DNA of 20,172 nucleotides, from positions 1 to 20,172 of the forward strand of contig JAEXMK010000055.1 of assembly GCA_023444445.1 (NCBI GenBank). The letters are read 5' to 3'. A model generated the notes under the pieces. It searched no databases, was not told the origin of the DNA, and was given only the letters and a program-made list of their open reading frames with translations. The DNA is from Pseudomonadota bacterium. GTDB lineage: Bacteria > Pseudomonadota > Alphaproteobacteria > Rhizobiales > Rhizobiaceae. Every line of letters starts with the position of its first letter. Position 1 is the first letter of the stretch. Of the stretch, positions 6,055 through 13,987 are shown one piece after another. The position numbers and the translations under genes were made by a program.

Positions 6055-6072
6055 GGGCTTTTACCCTACACC
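6048..6072. terminator. Hairpin across the convergent stop codons
   Basis: GGTGT at 6048-6052 pairs with ACACC at 6068-6072, and AGGG (6054-6057) pairs with CCCT (6064-6067), with one bulged A and a 6-nt loop. Both stop codons lie in the stem. It could serve as a shared 3' end for the transpeptidase and dnaE, but neither strand has a downstream T-run, so the terminator call is weak. Confidence 0.4.
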
Positions 6073-9000
6073 AGTTCCACATCAACGACACCGGGTGCGG
6101 ACCGCAGCGCAGCGGCGATCTCAGGTGAAATGCGGTATTTCTCCGTCAGCTCCACCTCGATCTCACGGCTGCCCTCGTCCTTGATGACGATGAAATAGAC
6201 CGATCCGTCGCCCTTTGTGTTGAGGTGGCGGGCAACGGTCTTCAGCGGGCCGGAATCGCGGACATAAACACGAAGCGCCTTCTGCATCTGCACGGATTTC
6301 TCCTCCAGAGACTGGGCCGTCTGGATACGCAGGCCGATGCCTTCCGGTCGCTCTTCCGCCTGTACCGTGATGACCAGCGATTTGCCGACCTCAAGCAGAT
6401 CGCGGAACTGGCCGAGCCCCTCGGAAAACAGCACGGCCTCATATTGCCCTGAAGCATCCGAGAAGGTGACGATGCCCATCTTGTTGCCGGTGCGGGTCTT
6501 GCGCTCCTGCTTGCCGGTCACCGTGCCGGCCAGACGCCCGGCGGTTGCCCCCTGCTTCACCGCCGCGGAAAAATCGGCGAAATTCTGCACCCGCAACTTT
6601 TCCAATATGGGACGGTAGGTATCGAGCGGATGGGCGGTGAGGTAAAAACCCAGCACCTGATATTCGCGCAGCAGCTTTTCCGAAGCGAGCCACGGCTGGA
6701 AAGCCGGCAGGACAAGCTTTTCCGGGCCGTTGCCGCCGCCGGAGCCAAACATGTCCGACTGGCCGATGGTGCGGTTGTTCTGGGCCATCTGGGCATAACC
6801 GATGATGCGGTCCAGCCCGCCAATCAGTTCGGCGCGGTCTCGGCCGAAACAATCGAAAGCACCTGCATTGATGAGGCTTTCCAGAACGCGGCGGTTGATC
6901 TGCTTGGGGTCGATGCGCAGGCAGAAATCCTCAAGGCTTGTGAACGGCTTGCCATCGCGAACCTGGACGATGTGTTCCACCGCCCCCTCGCCCACACCCT
7001 TGATGGCGGCCAGCGAATAATAGATGCGGTTTTCGCCCGTCTCGAACTGGCGGAAAGACGTCTGTACCGAAGGTGCGACGACCTCAATCCCAAGGCGGCT
7101 GGCATCCTGGCGGAAATCGTTGAGCTTTTCCGTATTGGCCATATCGAGCGTCATCGAGGCCGCGAGGAACTCCACCGGATAATGCGCCTTCATATAGGCG
7201 GTCTGGTAGGACACGATGGCGTAAGCGGCGGCATGGCTCTTGTTGAAGCCGTAATTGGCGAATTTCGCCAGAAGATCGAAGATGGTGTCGGCCTGCGGTT
7301 TCGACACGCCGTTCTTGATGGCACCATCAACAAAACGCTCGCGCTGCTGGTCCATTTCCTCCTTGATCTTCTTGCCCATGGCGCGACGCAGAAGATCGGC
7401 TTCGCCGAGCGAATAACCCGACAGAACCTGGGCGATCTGCATCACCTGTTCCTGATAGACGATAACGCCCTGCGTTTCCTTGAGCAGATGGTCGATGGTC
7501 GGATGGATCGATTCCAGCTCCTCCTCGCCATGTTTGCGGGCGTTATAAACCGGGATGTTTTCCATCGGGCCGGGGCGGTAAAGCGCCACCAGCGCGATGA
7601 TGTCCTCGATGCAGTCCGGCCGCATACCGATCAGCGCTTTGCGCATGCCGGCACTTTCCACCTGGAACACGCCGATGGTCTCGCCACGCGACAACATCTC
7701 GTAGGTTTTCGTGTCATCCAGCGGAATGGCGGAAAGATCGACCTTGATGCCGCGTTTGGCGACAAAGTCCACGGCGACTTTCAGCACCGTCAGCGTCTTC
7801 AGGCCAAGGAAGTCGAATTTGACGAGGCCGGCGCTTTCGACCCATTTCATGTTGAACTGGGTGACCGGCATATCGGATCGCGGATCGCGATACATCGGTA
7901 CAAGCTTTGACAGCGGCCGGTCACCGATGACGATACCGGCGGCATGGGTGGAGGCGTGGCGGTAAAGCCCCTCGATCTTCTGGGCGATATCCAGCAGCCG
8001 GGCGACCACCGGTTCTTTGTCCGCCTCTTCCTGCAATCGTGGCTCTTCCTCGATAGCCTTCGAAAGCGGCGTCGGGTTGGCCGGGTTGTTGGGCACCAGC
8101 TTGCAGATCTTGTCCACCTGCCCATAGGGCATTTCCAGCACACGGCCGACGTCGCGCAAGGCCGCGCGCGCCTGCAGCGAACCGAAGGTGATGATCTGCG
8201 CCACCTGCTCGCGGCCATATTTGGCCTGGACATAGCGGATCACTTCTTCGCGGCGATCCTGACAGAAGTCGATATCGAAGTCGGGCATCGAAACGCGTTC
8301 GGGATTGAGAAAGCGTTCGAACAGCAACGAAAAACGCAGCGGGTCGACGTCGGTAATGGTCAGCGCGTAAGCGACCAGCGAGCCCGCACCTGACCCGCGC
8401 CCCGGGCCGACCGGAATATCATGCTGCTTCGCCCATTTGATGAAGTCGGCAACGATCAGGAAGTAACCGGGAAACTTCATGCGCGAGATGACGCCGAGTT
8501 CGAAATCCAGCCTGTCACGATACTCCTGCTCCGTATAACCCGGCGCCATGCCGAGCGTGGCGAGCCGCTGATCCAGCCCCTCCACCGCCTGACGGCGCAG
8601 TTCCTCCGTCTCGGCGCGCTCGGCCGCTTCCGGGTCGTCGCTGGCGCCGGTGAAACGTGGCAGGATGGGTCCACGTTTTTTCAGAACATAGGAGCATCGC
8701 AGAGCAATCTCGACCGTATTCTCCAGCGCCTCGGGAAGATCGGCAAACAGCGCCGTCATCTCAGCACGGCTCTTGAGGTAGTGATCAGGCGTCAGCCGGA
8801 AGCGGCTGTCGTCCGAGACGATGGCATTGTGGGCCACGGCCATCAGCGCATCATGGGCCTCATAATCAGCCTTCGACGGGAAGAAGGCTTCGTTGGTCGC
8901 AACCAGCGGGATATCGTGCTCATAGGCAAGGCCGATCATGCGCCGCTCGTGCGAACGATCATAACCTGACTGGCGCTGCAACTCGATATAGAGGCTGTCA

Positions 9001-9566
9001 CCGAAGAGTGACTTCAGCGCCAGAAGTCGCTCTCTGGCCTGCGCGGTGTGGCCGTCCTTCAGAGCCATATCCACTGGCCCGCCCGAAGCGCCAGTCAATG
9101 CGATGAGCCCCGCATTGGAGGATTCTTCCAGCCACGCGCGGGTTATATGCACCGCGTGACCACTGCCCTCGCCGTCGAGATATGCGCGACTGACAAGATC
9201 GACCAGCCGCTCGTATCCTTCCGCATTGGCGGCGAGAAGGACGATGGCGGGGAGTTTCTGGAGATGGCTATTATGGCTGCGCCGGTCATCCGCCGCATCC
9301 TGCATATCAATGGACAATTGGCAGCCAATGATCGGCTGCAGTCCCTCGTCGCGGGCCTTTTCGGAAAACTCCAGCGCCACGAAAAGATTATTGGTATCAG
9401 TGATGGCAATGGCCGGTTGACCGTCAGCGACGGCCTTGGCCATGATTTTCTTGAGCGGCAAGGCCCCCTCAAGAAGGGAATAGGCGGAGTGAACCCGAAG
9501 GTGGACGAAACCGGGAGTTTTCACGGTGTCGCCAGAGCTCTCTCCATGCACAACCATATCGCCCAT
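6066..9566 (-). CDS. dnaE: DNA polymerase III alpha subunit (DnaE1)
   Basis: Catalytic subunit of the replicative C-family polymerase. At 1166 residues it has the full DnaE1 length. The N-terminal PHP domain begins FVHLRVHSAYSLLEGALPL (20-38). The palm contains VGPGRGSGAGSLVAY and MPDFDIDFCQDRR with catalytic D431 and D433; the third aspartate is D585 in VKFDFLGLK. Other landmarks are YQEQVMQIAQVLSGYS in the fingers, a helix-hairpin-helix around SLAAIKGVGEGAVEHI, and a C-terminal OB fold around AGRLAGTVTGKQERKTRTGNKMG. The ATG at 9566 has AGGA 7 nt upstream; ATG 9557 is possible. A 28-codon ORF controlled by LexA boxes lies upstream on the same strand with no terminator between. The 3' end converges on the L,D-transpeptidase. 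Confidence 0.98.
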   Translation of the reverse strand: MGDMVVHGESSGDTVKTPGFVHLRVHSAYSLLEGALPLKKIMAKAVADGQPAIAITDTNNLFVALEFSEKARDEGLQPIIGCQLSIDMQDAADDRRSHNSHLQKLPAIVLLAANAEGYERLVDLVSRAYLDGEGSGHAVHITRAWLEESSNAGLIALTGASGGPVDMALKDGHTAQARERLLALKSLFGDSLYIELQRQSGYDRSHERRMIGLAYEHDIPLVATNEAFFPSKADYEAHDALMAVAHNAIVSDDSRFRLTPDHYLKSRAEMTALFADLPEALENTVEIALRCSYVLKKRGPILPRFTGASDDPEAAERAETEELRRQAVEGLDQRLATLGMAPGYTEQEYRDRLDFELGVISRMKFPGYFLIVADFIKWAKQHDIPVGPGRGSGAGSLVAYALTITDVDPLRFSLLFERFLNPERVSMPDFDIDFCQDRREEVIRYVQAKYGREQVAQIITFGSLQARAALRDVGRVLEMPYGQVDKICKLVPNNPANPTPLSKAIEEEPRLQEEADKEPVVARLLDIAQKIEGLYRHASTHAAGIVIGDRPLSKLVPMYRDPRSDMPVTQFNMKWVESAGLVKFDFLGLKTLTVLKVAVDFVAKRGIKVDLSAIPLDDTKTYEMLSRGETIGVFQVESAGMRKALIGMRPDCIEDIIALVALYRPGPMENIPVYNARKHGEEELESIHPTIDHLLKETQGVIVYQEQVMQIAQVLSGYSLGEADLLRRAMGKKIKEEMDQQRERFVDGAIKNGVSKPQADTIFDLLAKFANYGFNKSHAAAYAIVSYQTAYMKAHYPVEFLAASMTLDMANTEKLNDFRQDASRLGIEVVAPSVQTSFRQFETGENRIYYSLAAIKGVGEGAVEHIVQVRDGKPFTSLEDFCLRIDPKQINRRVLESLINAGAFDCFGRDRAELIGGLDRIIGYAQMAQNNRTIGQSDMFGSGGGNGPEKLVLPAFQPWLASEKLLREYQVLGFYLTAHPLDTYRPILEKLRVQNFADFSAAVKQGATAGRLAGTVTGKQERKTRTGNKMGIVTFSDASGQYEAVLFSEGLGQFRDLLEVGKSLVITVQAEERPEGIGLRIQTAQSLEEKSVQMQKALRVYVRDSGPLKTVARHLNTKGDGSVYFIVIKDEGSREIEVELTEKYRISPEIAAALRSAPGVVDVELV

Positions 9567-9671
9567 GTCATCATCCTGTCATTCTGAATCACGGGGGCGA
9601 TTTTCCGATTTCCGGCGCTCAATGTCCACCGCCTTGCGATGTCCATACAGGCTTCTGCGCCGGTGTCTTCT

Positions 9672-9758
9672 TCACAGGGCGGTGAGGATCACCGAAAAGC
9701 TGGCGACGAAGACAGCGATGGAGGTGAAAGCGGCAACGTCACGGATGAAATCAGTCAT
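9672..9758 (-). CDS. 28-residue hydrophobic peptide, putative SOS-induced small membrane protein
   Basis: Not a family I recognise. Translation from ATG 9758 gives 28 residues ending in TGA at 9672-9674. The N-terminus MTDFIRDVAAF is charged (D3, R6, D7) and is followed by an uninterrupted hydrophobic stretch (residues 8-28, ending SVILTAL), long enough for one membrane helix. Translation signals are excellent: AAGGAG at 9765-9770, 6 nt before the ATG. Upstream lie a TTGACA promoter and three LexA half-sites, giving a predicted leader of about 20 nt. This matches the architecture of SOS-induced membrane peptides such as Caulobacter SidA and E. coli TisB, both 29 aa, without evident sequence identity. 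Function (division inhibitor, depolarising toxin or other) is inference. dnaE starts 105 nt downstream on the same strand. It could also be a leader peptide of dnaE. Confidence 0.72.
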   Translation of the reverse strand: MTDFIRDVAAFTSIAVFVASFSVILTAL

Positions 9759-9779
9759 TGTTCTCTCCTTACTCGTTAT

Positions 9780-9805
9780 GTTCTAAATTTGTTCTCATTT
9801 TGTTC
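9780..9805. promoter_or_regulatory. Tandem LexA boxes (GTTC-N7-GTTC-N7-GTTC)
   Basis: GTTC occurs at 9780-9783, 9791-9794 and 9802-9805, each separated by exactly 7 nt. This gives two overlapping perfect matches to the alphaproteobacterial LexA operator GTTC-N7-GTTC, on an 11-bp period (about one helical turn). They cover the spacer, -10 region and start site of the minus-strand promoter that faces the 28-codon ORF and dnaE. No + strand gene starts nearby, so the minus strand is the likely target. Confidence 0.85.
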
Positions 9806-9814
9806 GTTTGTCAA
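9785..9814 (-). promoter_or_regulatory. Sigma-70-type promoter under LexA boxes
   Basis: The minus strand has a perfect -35 TTGACA at 9814-9809. After 17-18 nt comes an AT-rich -10 region (CAAATT or AAATTT, 9791-9785) that is not a close consensus match. The start would be near 9779, about 20 nt before the small ORF's ATG. The LexA boxes overlap it, consistent with direct repression. Confidence 0.65.
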
Positions 9815-9902: not shown

Positions 9903-9934
9903 AAAAACCCGGAGGCGAAAGCGCCTCCGGGTTT
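9903..9934 (-). terminator. Strong terminator after lolD
   Basis: A 13-bp perfect stem pairs 9905-9917 with 9922-9934 around a 4-nt loop. On the minus strand it ends in TTTTT (9907-9903). It lies about 165 nt past the lolD stop and ends the proS-lolC/E-lolD transcription unit before the LexA-controlled promoter. On the + strand it is followed by only three T residues, so minus is the functional direction. Confidence 0.9.
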
Positions 9935-10097: not shown

Positions 10098-10781
10098 TCA
10101 GAAATCGACGATCTTGCCGTCGGCGAGCGTCACGCGCCGATCCATGCGGGCGGCGAGTTCATGATTGTGAGTGGCGATCAGCGCCGCGAGGCCGGATTGG
10201 CGCACCAGTGCCTCGAGCGCATCGAATACGTAATGCGCGGTTTCCGGATCGAGATTGCCGGTCGGCTCGTCGGCGAGCAGCAGGAGCGGCGCGTTGGCGA
10301 CGGCGCGGGCAATTGCGACACGCTGTTGTTCACCACCGGAGAGTTCTGCCGGACGGTGTTCGCCGCGATGGCCTACCCGCATATAGTCGAGCAGAGCGCT
10401 TGCACGCTTGCGGGCCTCCGCCTGGGTGAGACCAGCGATGAGCTGCGGCATCATCACATTTTCCACCGCCGAAAATTCCGGCAGAAGGTGGTGGAACTGA
10501 TAGACGAAACCGATATCGCTGCGGCGGATTGCGGTGCGCGCTTCATCCGGCAGGCCATTGCAGGGCGCGCCGTTGATGAAGACTTCACCCGCATCGGGAT
10601 GCTCCAGGAGCCCCGCCAGATGCAAAAGCGTCGATTTGCCGGTGCCCGAAGGAGCGACCAGCGCCACCATCTCACCGCTCCTCAACTCAAAATCGGCCTT
10701 GCGCAGAATGGAAAGCGATGTCTCGCCCTGACCGTAGGTTCTCTCGACACCGGTAAGCCGCAGCACTGTTTTTTTTGCCAT
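10098..10781 (-). CDS. lolD: Lipoprotein-releasing ABC transporter ATPase LolD
   Basis: ATPase that powers extraction of outer-membrane lipoproteins from the inner membrane to the carrier LolA. All ABC motifs are intact in the 227 residues: Walker [10 protein letters not shown] (43-51), Q-loop Q95, signature LSGGEQQ (147-153), Walker B LLLLADE (166-172) followed by PTGNLD, and switch histidine in IATHNHE. The segment [17 protein letters not shown] is typical of LolD and related MacB-type ATPases. It starts 15 nt after the lolC/E stop, with AAGGA upstream, so the two are co-transcribed and surely form one complex. A MacB or FtsE relative is less likely given this partner. Confidence 0.94.
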
Positions 10782-10796: not shown

Positions 10797-12104
10797 TTAT
10801 TCGTAACGCAGGGCCTGCACCGGATCGAGCTTGGAAGCCCGCCATGCTGGAAAGATCGTTGCCAGGAAAGAGAGCGTCAGCGCCATGATGACAACGGAAA
10901 TCGTCTCGCTGATATCCATTTCTGCCGGTAGCTGGCTCAGGAAATAAAGCTGCGGGTCAAACAGAACCGTGCCTGATATCCAGGAGAAGAACTGCCGAAT
11001 GGATTCCACGTTGAGGCAGACGATGACGCCAAGCGCCACCCCGGCAAAGGTGCCGACCATGCCGATGGCCGCCCCGGTCATGAAGAAGATGCGCATCACT
11101 GCACCAGAGCTTGCACCCATGGTGCGCAGAATGGCGATATCGCTGCCCTTGTCCTTCACCAGCATGATGAGGCCGGAAATGATGTTCAAGGCCGCCACCA
11201 GAACGATGAGGGTGAGGATCATGAACATAACGTTTCTTTCCACCTGAAGGGCGGAGAAGAAGGTCTGGTTCCGTTGCCTCCAGTCGGTGATATAGACCTG
11301 CCTTTCGGCGGCCTGCTCCACCAGCGGACGGATGCCATCGACATCATCCGGACGGCTGACGTAAAGCTCGATCGATTGCACGATGCCATCGGCATTGAAA
11401 TAAAGCTGCGCCTCTGAGAGCGGCATATAGATCATCGAGGCGTCGTATTCGGACATGCCGATTTCGAAGACACCAGAGATCTTGTAGGATTTGACACGCG
11501 GATTGACGCCCATCGGCGTCACGTCTCCCTCCGGAGAAATCAGCGTGATATCGTCGCCGGCCGTCACGCCCAGCTGGGCGGCGAGCCTGGAGCCGACAAG
11601 GACGCCATCACCGGCCATGAAGCCAACGAGGTCACCAGTCTTGATGTTGGTCGCGACTTCCTTGACCTTGTCGATGTCTTCCTGGCGCACACCGCGCACC
11701 AGCGCACCGGAGCCCGCGCCGCCGCGGCCAGAGGCAAGCGTCTGGCCCTCCACCAGTGGCAGGGCCATGGTAACGCCGGGAACGGCAGCGAATTTCTTGG
11801 CCAGCTCATCATAATTGTTGAAGGGCTGGTCGATCGGCTGCACAATCATGTGACCGTTGATGCCGAGAATGCGGGAGATCAGTTCGGTGCGGAAGCCATT
11901 CATGACGGCCATGACGATGATGAGCGTTGCTACGCCCAGCATGATGCCTACAAAAGAAAAGCCGGCGATGACGGAAATAAAGGCTTCCTTGCGCCGCGAG
12001 CGTAGATAACGCCAGGCCACCATACGTTCAAAAGCGGAAAACGGCCGGGCGGTCTTTGCCCCGGCGGAAACAGCCGCACCTTTTTCAGCTTCGGCTTGTG
12101 CCAT
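10797..12104 (-). CDS. lolC: Lipoprotein-releasing permease LolC/LolE
   Basis: Inner-membrane permease of the Lol system. The 435 residues show a cytoplasmic N-terminus, a first membrane helix (about 43-70, ISVIAGFSFVGIMLGVATLI) and a MacB-like periplasmic domain (about 70-285). An FtsX-type domain with three more helices follows (about 288-320, 335-365, 390-420), ending SKLDPVQALRYE. Only one permease gene precedes lolD here, so it may form a homodimer (LolF-like) rather than a LolC-LolE pair. I cannot exclude a second gene elsewhere. The ATG has GGGAG 6 nt upstream. proS lies 119 nt upstream with a hairpin between. Confidence 0.92.
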   Translation of the reverse strand: MAQAEAEKGAAVSAGAKTARPFSAFERMVAWRYLRSRRKEAFISVIAGFSFVGIMLGVATLIIVMAVMNGFRTELISRILGINGHMIVQPIDQPFNNYDELAKKFAAVPGVTMALPLVEGQTLASGRGGAGSGALVRGVRQEDIDKVKEVATNIKTGDLVGFMAGDGVLVGSRLAAQLGVTAGDDITLISPEGDVTPMGVNPRVKSYKISGVFEIGMSEYDASMIYMPLSEAQLYFNADGIVQSIELYVSRPDDVDGIRPLVEQAAERQVYITDWRQRNQTFFSALQVERNVMFMILTLIVLVAALNIISGLIMLVKDKGSDIAILRTMGASSGAVMRIFFMTGAAIGMVGTFAGVALGVIVCLNVESIRQFFSWISGTVLFDPQLYFLSQLPAEMDISETISVVIMALTLSFLATIFPAWRASKLDPVQALRYE

Positions 12105-13840: not shown

Positions 13841-13987
13841 ACAAAAGAGGCAGGAAGTTTAAATTCTTGTCATTTTCGCGGTCAGTCTTGGGAGGATCAG
13901 ATCTTAGGCGCGCTCGTCGCTGCCCCGGCAACGGTTACAGATCACGCGAAACCTGGAAAACAAGGCTGAAAGGCCTTGTTTTTTTTT
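13841..13987 (+). ncRNA. Probable trans-encoded sRNA, alpha-r9-like by context
   Basis: A + strand transcript of about 147 nt is inferred from a candidate promoter and a strong intrinsic terminator, in a gap flanked on both sides by minus-strand genes, so no protein gene accounts for the terminator. The interior includes AGGCAGGAAG and GGGAGGATCAG, purine-rich stretches that could pair with ribosome binding sites. From memory, the rhizobial alpha-r9 family (Smr9C of Sinorhizobium meliloti) has about this length and lies beside proS. I could not compare sequences. The overlapping + frame 13867-14097 reads through the terminator and is not protein-like. The exact 5' end is uncertain. Confidence 0.7.
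13957..13987 (+). terminator. Rho-independent terminator of the sRNA
   Basis: AACAAGGC (13959-13966) pairs with GCCTTGTT (13973-13980) around a 6-nt loop, extendable by two A-T pairs, and is followed by an unbroken run of T to 13987. It points + and no + strand protein gene ends nearby. Confidence 0.92.

Follow-up and report, generated by a model that had tools for sequence, protein, structure and literature searches.

A conserved 28-residue peptide gene behind a putative LexA operator in Rhizobiaceae, probably a SidA-like member of the SOS response

Between the genes of a lipoprotein exporter and dnaE, a genome of the Rhizobiaceae carries a 28-codon open reading frame directly behind three half-sites of a putative LexA operator. 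The locus raises the question of whether so short a frame is a gene, whether it belongs to the SOS response, and what its product might do. It lies in the window, meaning the whole stretch of DNA that was analysed (20,172 nt; contig JAEXMK010000055.1 of assembly GCA_023444445.1). The initial annotation had described a TTGACA element, a triple half-site with 11-bp spacing, an AAGGAG Shine-Dalgarno sequence and the 28-codon ORF, and had proposed an SOS peptide, perhaps a division inhibitor or a membrane-active toxin. The coordinates and description of these elements proved correct, and all of them are on the minus strand.

6066–9566, minus strand: ORF, dnaE, the downstream neighbour (collinear with annotated dnaE of Sinorhizobium meliloti CP090106.1)
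9672–9758, minus strand: 28-codon ORF and stop codon, encoding the probable SidA-like peptide; translation MTDFIRDVAAFTSIAVFVASFSVILTAL; ATG at 9758–9756
9765–9770 (read 9770–9765), minus strand: Shine-Dalgarno sequence AAGGAG, 6 nt from the ATG
9780–9805, minus strand: putative LexA operator of three GAAC half-sites (9805–9802, 9794–9791 and 9783–9780) with an exact 11-bp period
9809–9814, minus strand: TTGACA, candidate −35 element
9905–9934, minus strand: terminator-like hairpin between lolD and the peptide gene
10098–10781, minus strand: ORF, lolD (ABC ATPase), the upstream neighbour (collinear with the annotated S. meliloti ABC ATPase gene)
10797–12104, minus strand: ORF, lolC (lipoprotein-releasing permease; collinear with the annotated S. 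meliloti permease gene)

The names lolC, lolD and dnaE were thus assigned by collinearity with annotated S. meliloti genes. Because one terminator-like hairpin was found where 0.6 were expected, the hairpin at 9905–9934 is suggestive only. The hydrophobic stretch described for residues 8–28 of the peptide is confirmed by a mean Kyte-Doolittle value of 2.24; the whole peptide has one positive and two negative residues. Searches of Pfam and NCBIfam with the window peptide returned no match. Elsewhere in the window, Rfam matches mark the sRNA EcpR1 (Atu_C6, RF02500, 89 bits) at 564–673 on the minus strand and the ar9 sRNA (RF02343, 132.5 bits) at 13841–13987 on the plus strand.

The ORF was compared among close relatives. 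The search covered 101 of them; the 39 that belong to the nearest genus each gave a DNA match. The ATG-started 28-codon frame is intact in each of these 39 genomes, with no frameshift or stop in any orthologue. Synonymous substitution predominates, as had been anticipated: across the 34 distinct sequences dN/dS is ∼0.10 in the peptide frame, whereas the other two frames give 1.2 and 68. Across the 28 codons, 10, 1 and 24 sites vary at codon positions 1, 2 and 3, respectively, and M1, D7 and F17 are invariant in the 34-row peptide alignment. The ORF is a real gene, and its amino-acid sequence is itself under purifying selection.

The putative operator was evaluated both as a pair and as a triplet of half-sites. 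Two copies of the pair GAAC-N7-GAAC are present in the window where 0.69 would be expected, and since 19 of 100 window shuffles also reach two, the pair alone is weak evidence. In the nearest genome it occurs 161 times, compared with 86 for the reversed control pattern. The triple half-site is present once in the window where 0.01 were expected, a count reached by one shuffle in 100. Among 40 sequences (39 of the genus plus the window), GAAC is found at the middle half-site in 40, at the ATG-proximal one in 39 and at the distal one in 26, the remaining distal half-sites reading AAAC. Across the family, an exact pair lies within 80 nt upstream of 129 of 137 distinct Rhizobiaceae genes, as opposed to 37 of 2142 control ORFs (other small ATG ORFs from the same loci), and TTGAC lies upstream of 124 of the 137. 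The expectation that the operator would be kept in orthologues was therefore borne out. In the nearest genome an exact box precedes lexA, while recA has a one-mismatch box only (GAACAAATAGAGTAC), a kind of match that occurs four times in the locus against 3.1 expected. Taken from its sequence, the operator strongly suggests SOS control of the peptide gene.

Half-site pairs are common in genomes of this sort, and the ORF and its boxes might on that account be taken for a chance arrangement. This reading retains next to no probability in view of the rarity of the triple half-site, the 39 intact frames, the dN/dS value, the box counts and the family-wide distribution described below, and a chance ORF was rejected on these grounds. 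Conservation of frame, length and operator instead identifies the ORF as a gene and the arrangement as real.

The distribution of the gene was determined with a profile built from the 34 peptides, with E values up to 0.01 accepted for the family counts. The profile finds the peptide in 223 of 247 Rhizobiaceae genomes and in 97 of 106 genera. Box and peptide length were surveyed in 199 loci, some repeating one gene, of which 165 held the peptide and yielded the 137 distinct genes; the other 34 had no peptide at threshold and were mostly dnaE regions missing the gene. The length is exactly 28 residues in 131 of the 137. Outside the Rhizobiaceae the profile signal fades. A phylum-wide sample gave 13 of 199: ten Rhizobiaceae, two other members of the order and one marginal outsider. 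Hyphomicrobiales dnaE loci, with that of the nearest genome excluded, matched in 9 of 29 at E up to 0.03. Of 29 further class-level dnaE loci, one of them of the same order, 10 show by eye a small hydrophobic ORF behind a box, and profile support for these ORFs is weak or absent. In these distant alphaproteobacterial loci (L167–L174, L180 and L182) the box takes forms such as GAACAAAACAAGAAC, and by position and box the ORFs behind it are possible far members of the family. The class-wide picture thus draws partly on position and box alone. Co-loss of the peptide with lexA was considered, and no clear separation emerged: of 20 genomes with the peptide, 18 have a lexA scoring above the cut-off, as do 15 of 20 without it, the latter taken from a set of 24.

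The position of the gene in the window bears on its relation to dnaE. The interval from the peptide stop codon to dnaE (within window 6066–9758) showed no terminator-like site, so transcription from an SOS promoter could continue into the gene of the replicative polymerase. This arrangement, together with the peptide's place just upstream of dnaE in 56 of the 90 Rhizobiaceae dnaE loci read (from 150 genomes with a dnaE match), would suit a leader peptide or uORF that tunes dnaE expression. All of the 30 best-scoring dnaE loci, read over ∼1.5 kb, have the peptide, as do 26 of the other 60, read over ∼1 kb. A genome-wide profile search was then applied to 27 of the 34 misses, seven being left out, and to one genome whose dnaE region was unread (G204), with two positive controls. 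The peptide was recovered in 28 of 28 such genomes (E up to 0.0054); 25 of these copies have an exact box no more than 75 nt away, and 21 have lolD within 1.5 kb upstream. In 27 of the 28 the gene lies elsewhere in the assembly, and in G163 it precedes dnaE by 1.4 kb. Three of the relocated loci were read; in each, the next long ORF runs on the other strand, in the direction of the peptide gene, which there appears to stand alone. A gene found apart from dnaE in 27 of 28 genomes is not just a leader for dnaE, and a general uORF role was rejected. Selection on the amino-acid sequence, beyond the mere act of reading it, and the retention of the box in relocated copies also count against a uORF, which we regard as highly improbable.

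Some genomes contain further matches. In G137 the best match, MRDFLRDLLALAAMSGFLAAAAIWLSQVPA (L346), is peptide-like and has neither box nor lolD, and a second match with both is the normal copy; MRDFLRDLLALAAMSGFLAAAAIWLSQVPA is either a second copy or a chance match. Second copies whose upstream 75 nt contain no exact LexA box occur in G055 (L399, 2438–2536) and in G513 (L400, minus strand), for example MRDLLHDIASFVAVSTFIATFAVWAGYLAEKV. A gene encoding a DUF3799 PDDEXK-like domain is found close to the L399 copy, the L400 copy has a similar neighbour, and the setting is perhaps mobile DNA; tblastn of one second-copy peptide against a phage collection gave no match.

A link to experimental data comes from S. 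meliloti. In tblastn searches of plasmid records, the window peptide gave a weak match (E 0.3) in S. meliloti Ak57, on the 3.7-Mb replicon CP090106.1. The order of genes there is proS, Lol permease, ABC ATPase, a 28-aa ORF (MADFVRDLAAFASMSLFIVSISVIALGL) behind a triple GAAC operator, and dnaE, and this neighbourhood makes the homologue sure despite the E value. The ORF occupies positions 1486770–1486856 of the replicon. The feature table, itself incomplete, has no annotated gene at the ORF. This record (L403) is filed as plasmid pSymB, and since it carries dnaE and proS it looks like a chromosome under a plasmid label. In S. meliloti 2011, ribosome profiling detected translation of a novel small ORF, sORF25, in the 5′-UTR of dnaE1 (PMC10117765). 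This is the location at which Ak57 has the 28-aa homologue, and sORF25 is probably the S. meliloti counterpart of the window peptide. The authors raised the possibility that some 5′-UTR sORFs of this sort are uORFs, and not an SOS role (PMC10117765). The placement of sORF25 is thus a further point for the uORF reading, to be set against the relocated copies.

The other neighbour, lolD, suggests a different partner. Small membrane subunits encoded beside the gene of their partner are a known pattern, and lolD is kept nearby in 21 of the 28 genomes in which the peptide gene is not immediately before dnaE. The peptide could accordingly be an accessory small subunit of the Lol lipoprotein exporter that was put under SOS control. 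Against this, seven of the 28 have no lolD within 1.5 kb (although the second match in G137 does adjoin lolD), the peptide gene has its own operator, and the terminator-like hairpin separates it from lolD. A Lol subunit would also leave the similarity to SidA unexplained, and we consider it unlikely.

The initial annotation had left the function between a division inhibitor and a membrane toxin, and these two options fared differently. TisB of E. coli is a short SOS-induced membrane peptide and the toxin of a type I pair. The window peptide is likewise short, hydrophobic and apparently SOS-controlled, and might depolarise the membrane and favour persistence. Its net charge of about −1, with a single basic residue and no cationic face seen, differs from that model. 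The Rfam scan of the window, the peptide locus included, gave no match to an antisense RNA or a type I toxin-antitoxin RNA; an undescribed RNA would escape such a scan. The Shine-Dalgarno sequence appears to sit in a short leader, not a long structured one, and the gene is near-universal in Rhizobiaceae at a conserved place, unlike most TisB-type toxins. The toxin option gained no support and is very unlikely, whereas that of a division inhibitor was strengthened by position, operator and profile similarity to SidA.

Members of the Caulobacteraceae provide this comparison. In Caulobacter, sidA (CCNA_02004) and dnaE (CC1926) are presumably neighbours. SidA is an inner-membrane inhibitor of 29 aa that is induced in the SOS response and acts on FtsW (PMC4211646); the two locus tags are given in PMC10769358 (sidA) and PMC1839093 (dnaE). 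Caulobacteraceae loci were reached through the Caulobacter PleD sequence (PDB), and dnaE was sought in 30 genomes and found at threshold in 29, a C. vibrioides draft giving no dnaE match at threshold. In 13 of 13 Caulobacteraceae loci (L287–L299; Caulobacter, Phenylobacterium, Brevundimonas and one other), the slot before dnaE holds a peptide; twelve of these have 29 residues and the other has 31. An exact box lies within 70 nt upstream in 11 of the 13, and lolD lies beside the peptide in five, within the 1.5 kb fetched. Pfam gave no match for three of these peptides. The NCBIfam model NF033228 (div_inhib_SidA; cut-off 35 bits) is passed by two of four, with scores of 72.3 for Caulobacter, 65.6 for Phenylobacterium, 32.6 for one Brevundimonas and no match for a second.

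The window peptide shares with SidA its size (28 and 29 aa), a single hydrophobic span, a place directly before dnaE (a link lost in other Rhizobiaceae) and, by sequence, an upstream GAAC-N7-GAAC box, tripled in the window. Alignment of the Rhizobiaceae and Caulobacteraceae profiles with hhalign is gapless over positions 1–21, with probability 91.8 and E 7.4e-7. The score of 26.2 compares with a best of 17.2 in 240 column shuffles, none of which comes close, and the Rhizobiaceae profile against single Caulobacteraceae peptides gives E values from 0.003 to 0.7. The shared core comprises R6, D/E7, A/S10, F/L11, S13, F17 and V18. The differences are also clear: the window peptide lacks W19 and M20, residues typical of SidA from Caulobacter, the C-terminal third is not alignable, similarity spans ∼21 residues, and identity to one Caulobacteraceae peptide (L289) is ∼25% when counted by eye. 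NF033228 does not match the window peptide up to E 10. The proposed link to SidA thus combines a short alignment with position and operator, and the gene is real, conserved and probably under SOS control, its product being a SidA-like variant that falls outside the curated SidA equivalog.

Small SOS-controlled membrane inhibitors of division are also known from other phyla. YneA, SosA and ChiZ are modelled on FtsW at low confidence, and SidA, likewise at low confidence, on transmembrane segment 7 of FtsW (PMC13396833). The likeness of the first three to the window peptide is one of description, not of sequence comparison.

The gene is therefore most readily explained as a LexA-repressed SOS gene for a single-span, 28-aa inner-membrane inhibitor of late division resembling SidA, which we consider likely. 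The proposal of an SOS peptide in the initial annotation is thereby supported at the sequence level by the 39 intact frames, the synonymous bias and the kept operator. In an undamaged cell, LexA bound to the tandem GAAC-N7-GAAC half-sites between the −35 element and the start codon would block transcription. After damage, RecA filaments would trigger LexA self-cleavage, and the peptide would be made and would enter the inner membrane. There we infer that it stalls late division or septation until repair is finished, with FtsW or its septal partners as the most likely target, as for SidA. This step is suggested by the homology to SidA.

A broader reading, put forward tentatively and judged just short of even, is that SidA is not peculiar to Caulobacter but is the local version of an SOS checkpoint that dates back to ancestral Alphaproteobacteria. 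This would consist of a LexA-gated membrane peptide of 28 to ∼45 aa, with the slot between lolD and dnaE as its root, across much of the class, including the pole-growing rhizobia. Where the gene is linked to dnaE, transcription from the SOS promoter would also extend into the replicative polymerase gene, so that division arrest and polymerase supply would be coupled. The findings suggest that the curated SidA model covers one corner of a wider family.

For rhizobia and agrobacteria, searches of open-licence papers listed no title or abstract naming a SidA-type or LexA-controlled small protein, and no experiment on the peptide itself came up. A 28-aa membrane protein is small enough for gene callers to miss. 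The reading as an SOS peptide also offers an explanation for a ribosome-profiling sORF formerly taken as a possible uORF. The natural sequence diversity of the family could be used to work out how a peptide of fewer than 30 residues affects the septal machinery. Short and precisely mapped, the peptide is a candidate for an SOS division checkpoint in these bacteria that would be easy to test.
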